Assembly: GCA_004295015.1 (NCBI GenBank)
Contig: SHNE01000049.1
Coordinates: 62,001 to 126,000 of the forward strand
Direction of reading: 5' to 3'
From: Bacteroidota bacterium
GTDB lineage: Bacteria; Bacteroidota; Bacteroidia; AKYH767-A; 2013-40CM-41-45
DNA length: 64,000 nt
Position numbers and translations under genes: made by a program. Every line of letters starts with the position of its first letter. Position 1 is the stretch's first letter. This document shows, one piece after another, positions 59,274-60,720 of this stretch. The notes beneath the pieces were generated by a model. The model worked only from the letters and a program-made list of their open reading frames with translations. It had not been told where the DNA came from and did no database searches.

Positions 59274-59315
59274 GTGCTGCTTGAATCCGGCAATGGGTAT
59301 TATTAAATTGAATAT

Positions 59316-59348
59316 TTGTTTAACATATCAAAAAAGGTTCTACTTTTG
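59316..59348 (+). promoter_or_regulatory. Consensus promoter of the Cas6-like gene
   Basis: TTG (59316-59318), a 22-nt spacer and TACTTTTG (59341-59348), an exact TAnnTTTG, lie about 60 bp before the start codon. The Cas6-like gene should therefore form its own transcription unit, independent of the glycan operon. Confidence 0.65.
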
Positions 59349-59407
59349 TAAAAGCTATATAATAGCAGGGGATTTTTTTAGCAATATCTTTTTCACGTAT
59401 AGTAGTT

Positions 59408-60178
59408 ATGAGAATAAAAATTTCGTTTTTGAAGGTCCACGGTAGCAGTGGAACCGTTCCACTTCACCACCAAAAAATCATTTCCGCCTTTTTAGAGGAG
59501 GTCATCAGGGAGATGTCTGTGTCTTCGGACAATTACAGCTTTTCTTCACTGAAGGGAACTTCAAAGGTTCAAACCGGACAGATTCGTTTCTTGTCTTCCA
59601 AAGTATCTTTGGTGCTCTCTGCTCCGGAAGCAGATTTTATTGATGAATTGGTCAAGAAAATTTTTGATCGACGCCTTGTAAGCTTCGCTAAGTTGACACT
59701 CGTGCCGAAATCATTTGAAGTTATACCTGATCCGGAATTTAATACTCAGATGAAATATGTGTGTATTTCTCCGATGGTTCCTCAGGAAGCCTTCCTTGCT
59801 GATGAATCAGGAAATTTGCCTGAGCCCTTAGATCCAAGAGCACAGGAGTATTCAGATATGTTTTACGATGCAATCCTTGATCGCATGGAGAAAGCAGGAT
59901 TTACTGAAGATCAAATAAGCAAGTTCGCTGAATTTGAAATCATCCCTGATCCAACCTACATCCAGAAAATCGCTGATACACACAAAAAATTCGCACGTAT
60001 CTATAAGAATAACCTGAATCAAACGATATACGGTTATCTCTTACCTTTCACTTTGCACGCACACCCGCAAGTCCAGAAATTTATATGGGAATGTGGAATT
60101 GGTCTCTACACAACGCAAGGATACGGAATGGTTGATATTGTTGGCGGCTCTGCACCTGAGACTGAATCAGACAATTGA
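59408..60178 (+). CDS. Orphan Cas6-family (RAMP) protein, probably lacking the catalytic histidine
   Basis: A 256-residue protein with the Cas6 pattern. The N-terminal strand MRIKISFLKV is followed by the helix start VPLHHQKIISAFLEEVI (17-33), then YSFSSLKG (43-50, usual FTFSxL), CISPMV (119-124), DPRAQEYSDMFYDAI (142-156), and C-terminal GYLLPFTLHAHP plus the Gly-rich loop GIGLYTTQGYG (230-240) that contacts RNA in Cas6. In typical Cas6 enzymes about 30 residues with the catalytic His separate the first helix from the FTFSxL strand. Here there are about 10, without His. His20/His21 are present but not in that position. No cas gene or CRISPR array is nearby. Confidence 0.75.
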   Translation: MRIKISFLKVHGSSGTVPLHHQKIISAFLEEVIREMSVSSDNYSFSSLKGTSKVQTGQIRFLSSKVSLVLSAPEADFIDELVKKIFDRRLVSFAKLTLVPKSFEVIPDPEFNTQMKYVCISPMVPQEAFLADESGNLPEPLDPRAQEYSDMFYDAILDRMEKAGFTEDQISKFAEFEIIPDPTYIQKIADTHKKFARIYKNNLNQTIYGYLLPFTLHAHPQVQKFIWECGIGLYTTQGYGMVDIVGGSAPETESDN

Positions 60179-60198: not shown

Positions 60199-60720
60199 TC
60201 ATTCGAACTTCGAAATCTTAGCGAACTTGACTGATTGATGCTCTCCGTTTACTACTGCAATCAATATGTAAACACCCATGTCCAAATTTTGAACGGGTAT
60301 TTCCCTGCAAAGAATATTTGGGTTGAAAGAGTTACTGCAAGAAATGCTCGAATAGTATTCACTGAATTTTAATTTACCGAAGGCATCGTAAATATAAAGT
60401 GTTACGGGACTGATTGTCTTTAAAAAAATACTGAAGGTTCCCGGGAAATTTGAAACTGCGGTAGGGTAAAAGTTGATGTCGAAGTTTCCGCAAACAGTGC
60501 TTGTTGTCCAGCTTCCATCCAGAAGACCGCCCCAATAATAGGCAGCACATTCATTTTTATACGTGACATTATCACAACCGCAAACCGGTTCATAAGTCGT
60601 GCCGCATGGCCAGAATTTATCTTCAATTCGGGTACTGTCGACACAATAGCTGAACTGTTGTTGTGCATGGCTCTCGCTTAGTCCAAGAACCAGCATACAG
60701 GCAATCAGTAGAATTCTCAT
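60199..60720 (-). CDS. Secreted Kazal-type inhibitor with T9SS sorting domain
   Basis: A 173-residue secreted protein: signal peptide (about 1-19), a Kazal-like domain (about 25-75) with CGTTYEPVCGCDNVTYKNEC, i.e. the C-x-PVCG-x-D-x-x-TY-x-N-x-C signature, and a C-terminal type IX sorting domain (about 80-173: FYPTAVSNF and GVYILIAVVNGE). Kazal domains block serine proteases with a reactive loop around the second cysteine. The protein would be exported by the Por system and may guard the cell surface against proteases. Convergent with the Cas6-like gene (20 bp). Confidence 0.8.
   Translation of the reverse strand: MRILLIACMLVLGLSESHAQQQFSYCVDSTRIEDKFWPCGTTYEPVCGCDNVTYKNECAAYYWGGLLDGSWTTSTVCGNFDINFYPTAVSNFPGTFSIFLKTISPVTLYIYDAFGKLKFSEYYSSISCSNSFNPNILCREIPVQNLDMGVYILIAVVNGEHQSVKFAKISKFE

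Follow-up and report, generated by a model that had tools for sequence, protein, structure and literature searches.

An orphan protein of predicted Cas6 fold conserved across a Bacteroidetes order and much of Cytophagales

Among described Cas6 proteins, PfCas6 processes pre-crRNA with a catalytic triad, Tyr31-His46-Lys52, and SsoCas6 (Sso1437), which lacks a catalytic histidine, is CRISPR-associated and yet active, using basic residues only, namely Lys25/Lys28/Lys51/Arg231 (PMC3652601). PH0350 of P. horikoshii (PhCas6nc) has been described as a Cas6 homologue without activity, binding unstructured, single-stranded RNA in its inter-domain cleft (PMC3727216). Cas proteins outside CRISPR loci have been described as solo Cas4 and solo Cas1 (PMC5704561, PMC9939771). 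The Cas6 fold, inactive Cas6 paralogues, solo Cas1 and solo Cas4 are already known, and in the open literature, that is, outside subscription papers, we found no paper describing a core Cas6 family that is independent of CRISPR.

Here we describe cas6L, a gene in a 64,000-nucleotide stretch of a Bacteroidota genome (the window), and name its product, an orphan Cas6-fold protein, Cas6L (Table 1). The preliminary description had let the gene begin at 59316, which takes in the promoter; the open reading frame starts at 59408 with an ATG codon. All motifs quoted there (PLHHQ, YSFSSLKG, CISPMV, GYLLPFTLHAH and the glycine-rich loop GIGLYTTQGYGMVD) were found in the protein. Profile searches matched Cas6L to PF01881 (Cas6_C; E 1.2e-15, above the cut-off), of which it is the sole match in its genome, and to PADLOC Cas6b over residues 1-245 (E 5.1e-29). 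TIGR01877 gave E 6.4e-15 and 56.1 bits, 2.5 bits short of the equivalog cut-off of 58.65, and PF10040 matched nothing anywhere in the genome. An AlphaFold model built from a 27-sequence alignment (pLDDT 91.6, pTM 0.87) matched Cas6 structures end to end. Its top solved structure was 3qjj, one of the PhCas6nc entries (3qjj/3qjl/3qjp; Z 25.7), with further matches to 5yi6 (Z 25.5) and the P. furiosus relative 3ufc (Z 25.4); PhCas6nc and 3ufc were also the best PDB profile matches. PfCas6 (3i4h) aligned with Z 24.5 and an rmsd of 2.1 A over 214 residues. Because profiles and predicted structure match Cas6 along its length, as had been proposed, the modelled two-domain RAMP/Cas6 fold with its glycine-rich loop is not in doubt.

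Table 1. Features of the cas6L locus (window coordinates)
Feature	Position	Strand	Basis
Bacteroidetes-type promoter: TTTG 59315-59318 and TACTTTTG 59341-59348, some 60 nt upstream of the ATG	59315..59348	+	read directly
cas6L, orphan Cas6-fold protein, 256 aa	59408..60178	+	open reading frame, profiles, predicted structure
PLHHQ, residues 18-22, start of helix 1	59459..59473	+	alignment
Shortened linker, about residues 34-43, in place of the PfCas6 segment with catalytic His46 and Lys52	59507..59536	+	His46 column gapped in 57/57
FSSLKGTSK, residues 45-53, with invariant Ser46, Lys49 and Gly50 that set the orphan clade apart	59540..59566	+	alignment
Conserved basic strand KKFARIY in the second RAMP domain, residues 193-199	59984..60004	+	K193, A196, R197 and Y199 invariant
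Glycine-rich loop, as in Cas6/RAMP proteins: GIGLYTTQGYGMVD, residues 230-243	60095..60136	+	profile and alignment

The active-site region was compared in an alignment of 57 orphans (the window protein and 56 others), PfCas6 and several canonical Cas6 proteins, for which every residue of the PfCas6 reference sequence was verified against 3pkm and 3i4h. Every one of the 57 orphans has a gap at the His46 column of PfCas6, in line with the earlier observation that the segment of the catalytic histidine is missing, and the orphans vary at the columns of Tyr31 and Lys52. The LHxxG segment is present in 17 of 17 canonical proteins, PfCas6 included, and in none of the 57 orphans. Judged by this alignment, Cas6L is without a Tyr31/His46/Lys52-type active site in its N-terminal domain; it shares with PfCas6 the fold and the HQ at the start of helix 1, but all three triad residues are lost. 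PhCas6nc is the closest fold, and Cas6L combines a Cas6 fold with a missing triad; the two sequences are only distantly related: the archaeal protein is just 19% identical, keeps a longer linker region and, unlike Cas6L, is known from CRISPR hosts and has been studied with CRISPR repeat RNA. Canonical Bacteroidota Cas6 proteins (TIGR01877; L161-L163, L192-L203) belong to the same superfamily, share the C-terminal domain and are the probable ancestral stock of Cas6L. They differ from it in that they keep LHxxG, are scattered rather than core, form a separate clade and in some cases lie near Cas1 or an array. We class Cas6L as Cas6-derived and outside the CRISPR-associated Cas6 endoribonucleases. 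In our moderately confident reading, it is an ancient, CRISPR-independent and probably non-cleaving RNA-binding protein, encoded by a vertically inherited core gene.

Loss of the triad is no proof of inactivity, since SsoCas6 cuts without a catalytic histidine. The preliminary description had proposed either a non-cutting RNA binder or a protein with a relocated active site, an interpretation that our results support in part. The main rival reading, which we consider unlikely though by no means negligible, is that Cas6L is still an endoribonuclease whose active site has moved to His21, Ser46/Lys49 and Lys193/Arg197 and which processes a conserved cellular RNA. These five residues are invariant over two deep clades. 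His21 of the P[LF]xHQ motif is found in 57/57 orphans, where canonical Cas6 proteins of the same class have Tyr, and Ser46, Lys49 and Gly50 of FSxLKG are kept in all orphans without exception. Precedents exist in SsoCas6, which cuts with Lys/Arg only, and in Cas6e and Cas6f, which have a histidine in helix 1 (PMC3652601). Against a relocated site, the equivalent of His21 in PfCas6, His22 of PYNHQ, lies outside the triad, so His21 may be structural, and the inactive PhCas6nc is among the best fold matches. Two other candidate sites were rejected: H217/H219 (LHAH) is replaced by LYAA at the same place in Cytophagales, and a histidine in the longer linker of family f43 is not conserved among its three genomes.

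A further, improbable reading is that Cas6L has lost RNA binding and acts as a protein-protein adaptor or ribosome-associated factor. It draws on conserved polar surface motifs that are atypical of Cas6 (FSD 148-150, D181, Y184) and on adjacency to ychF. It is countered by the glycine-rich loop and the basic KKFARIY strand, segments that contact RNA in Cas6 proteins and are among the most conserved of Cas6L; all orphans keep both the loop and the KKFARxY strand.

The gene ychF is the most recurrent partner of cas6L among relatives, lying directly upstream on the same strand. It holds this place in 30/30 loci of family f19 (placed as Cyclobacteriaceae/Flammeovirgaceae from two MAGs only, hence called Cyclobacteriaceae-type here), in 11/11 further f19/f43 loci, in 6 of 15 representatives of other Cytophagales families and in 5/29 loci of the window's order, where the cases are scattered over its branches. 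The link is lost in 9/15 of those other Cytophagales representatives and in most of the window's order, the window included, where cas6L lies between a bacterial sugar transferase gene and a convergent gene (60199-60720, minus strand; syntenic in the family) for a secreted-looking protein with a Kazal-type inhibitor domain. From the recurrence of ychF upstream across relatives, the pair looks ancestral and broken in the window's lineage. One syntenic block precedes ychF-cas6L in nearly all Cyclobacteriaceae-type loci (L144-L159); it contains what we take to be a DUF3276-like (Pur-alpha-type) gene and, in most loci, presumably an AI-2E-type transporter gene. Given the losses of the ychF link and the long syntenic blocks that Cyclobacteriaceae keep anyway, neighbourhood is weak functional evidence here. 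The E. coli YchF protein makes contact with IF3 and the small subunit of the ribosome and controls translation of leaderless mRNA (PMC8138138).

The distance between ychF and cas6L is usually 80-220 nt and goes down to 39 nt. Two loci of family f3 (G012 and G015; L181, L180) have cas6L beginning about 38 nt or less after ychF, and there the two genes are probably co-transcribed, unlike in the window. The earlier claim that cas6L has its own promoter fits the window locus, which carries TAnnTTTG, and sits less well with some relatives, where only about 38 nt separate ychF from the start of the gene. Given how often TAnnTTTG occurs in the window, 0.06 occurrences would be expected in the 134-nt gap before cas6L, and the motif lies within 125 nt upstream of the gene in 7/9 family relatives. 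In many Cyclobacteriaceae-type loci (L110-L134) the promoter falls just 3' of the ychF stop codon. An A/U-rich block, ATTGTTTnAnTTTTnATTTTTAA, is common to many genera of this family about 10-35 nt before the cas6L start; it is a possible autoregulatory site, judged from leader comparison that places it not clearly above background. When the 5' leaders were searched for an RNA ligand, the A/U-rich block ATTGTTTnAnTTTT shared by cas6L leaders of f19 scored 0.47 for conservation, against 0.46 for the leader of the nearby DUF3276-like gene, and we make no claim for it. Rfam returned three tRNAs only for the window.

CRISPR arrays were scanned in the window only, and cas genes were searched genome-wide by profile. 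The window held no CRISPR-spaced repeats, and the genome (99.98% complete) contained no Cas1, Cas5, RAMP (PF03787) or second Cas6. The preliminary description had reported no cas genes or array near cas6L and had named a class 1 CRISPR locus in another part of the genome, served by this Cas6, as the observation that would undo its orphan status; the profile searches found no such locus. Gene-family comparison likewise revealed no cas neighbours at 39 named cas6L loci. Class 1 CRISPR is almost absent from the window's order, in which Cas5 occurs in 0/42 genomes and a RAMP in 1/42, against 41/42 for cas6L. In the Cyclobacteriaceae-type family, cas6L is frequent both with Cas1 (28 of 31 genomes) and without it (38 of 47), so its presence does not follow CRISPR. 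A role in trans, with Cas6L still serving arrays missed by profile searches, is strongly disfavoured by the near absence of Cas5 and RAMPs from the order and of any Cas1, Cas5 or RAMP from the window's genome, even though type III loci can be served in trans by Cas6 (PMC12669027) and Cas1 occurs in 9/42 genomes of the order. Moreover, where a genome has a real CRISPR Cas6, that protein is encoded by a separate canonical copy: in G439, G472 and G462 this copy shares a contig with Cas1 at a distance of about 8-10 kb and cas6L lies elsewhere, and the Cas6L profile scores the canonical copies at E 1e-12 to 1e-10 against about 1e-70 for Cas6L. Most Cas1 proteins of the window's order (L072-L079) match PF01867 only at about 1e-30 and come without Cas5 or RAMPs, a pattern that would be expected if they belonged to type II systems, which use no Cas6.

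Across the window's order, cas6L is a single-copy gene in 41 of 42 genomes, the one miss being a 58%-complete genome. It was found in 66/78 Cyclobacteriaceae-type genomes (65/77 genera) and in 129/241 genomes of Cytophagales overall, spread over about 13 families. Among the other families of the class that were sampled, f43 alone has it. Conservation in CRISPR-free relatives, on which the preliminary description had made the idea of a host role depend, thus extends over the whole order and much of Cytophagales. Weak matches from the remaining classes of Bacteroidota, at E 1e-27 or weaker, were discarded as family members, as all 12 of 12 fetched proved to be canonical Cas6 with LHxxG, and a phage origin was rejected because no viral contig encodes a relative. 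Two genomes of family f52 (G088, G269; L108, L109) carry another short Cas6_C-like protein without LHxxG that only distantly resembles Cas6L. In a tree with 17 canonical Cas6 proteins, all orphans form one clade (support 100/100) on a long stem beside canonical Bacteroidota Cas6, for which a single origin followed by vertical inheritance would be the simplest reading. Solo Cas1 differs in lying in casposon-type neighbourhoods and Cas4 in being a common nuclease, whereas cas6L belongs to the chromosomal core and has no mobile surroundings.

Compared with its nearest relative, the window gene shows nucleotide identities of 0.87/0.96/0.41 at first, second and third codon positions; synonymous sites are saturated between the two, and no dN/dS value is given. 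Protein identity is 84%, and all neighbouring genes have lower values except parE (90%). As read from these comparisons, cas6L is under strong purifying selection. That it might be all that is left of a lost CRISPR locus, decaying or without function, as vanished catalytic residues and the lack of cas neighbours could suggest, has next to no chance of being right and is refuted by conservation, because codon positions (96% identity at the second, 41% at the third) and protein identity show selection, the reading frame is full-length in nearly every genome and retained order-wide, and the orphans make up a single clade that has new invariant residues in common.

Under the preferred reading of a CRISPR-independent RNA-binding protein, a Cas6-derived protein would have left CRISPR immunity long ago and become a vertically inherited core gene of the window's order and much of Cytophagales. 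By analogy with the non-catalytic Cas6 of P. horikoshii, Cas6L would bind a specific cellular RNA in its two-domain cleft and glycine-rich loop, and would probably leave it uncut. More weakly, the ribosome-associated ATPase encoded by ychF hints that this RNA might be tied to translation or to RNA metabolism related to the ribosome. A broader proposal, tentative and on balance doubtful, makes Cas6L a housekeeping factor of Cytophagales and a sister order that would act together with YchF in translation or in RNA metabolism linked to the ribosome, either binding a single conserved cellular RNA or cutting it with a relocated active site.

For annotation, these genes matter in that CRISPR pipelines will call them cas6 and so overcount CRISPR systems in Cytophagales. 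If confirmed, our findings would mean that the fold which processes CRISPR RNA has been put to use in ordinary cell biology across a deep Bacteroidetes branch, and would open the search for the RNA that Cas6L recognises.
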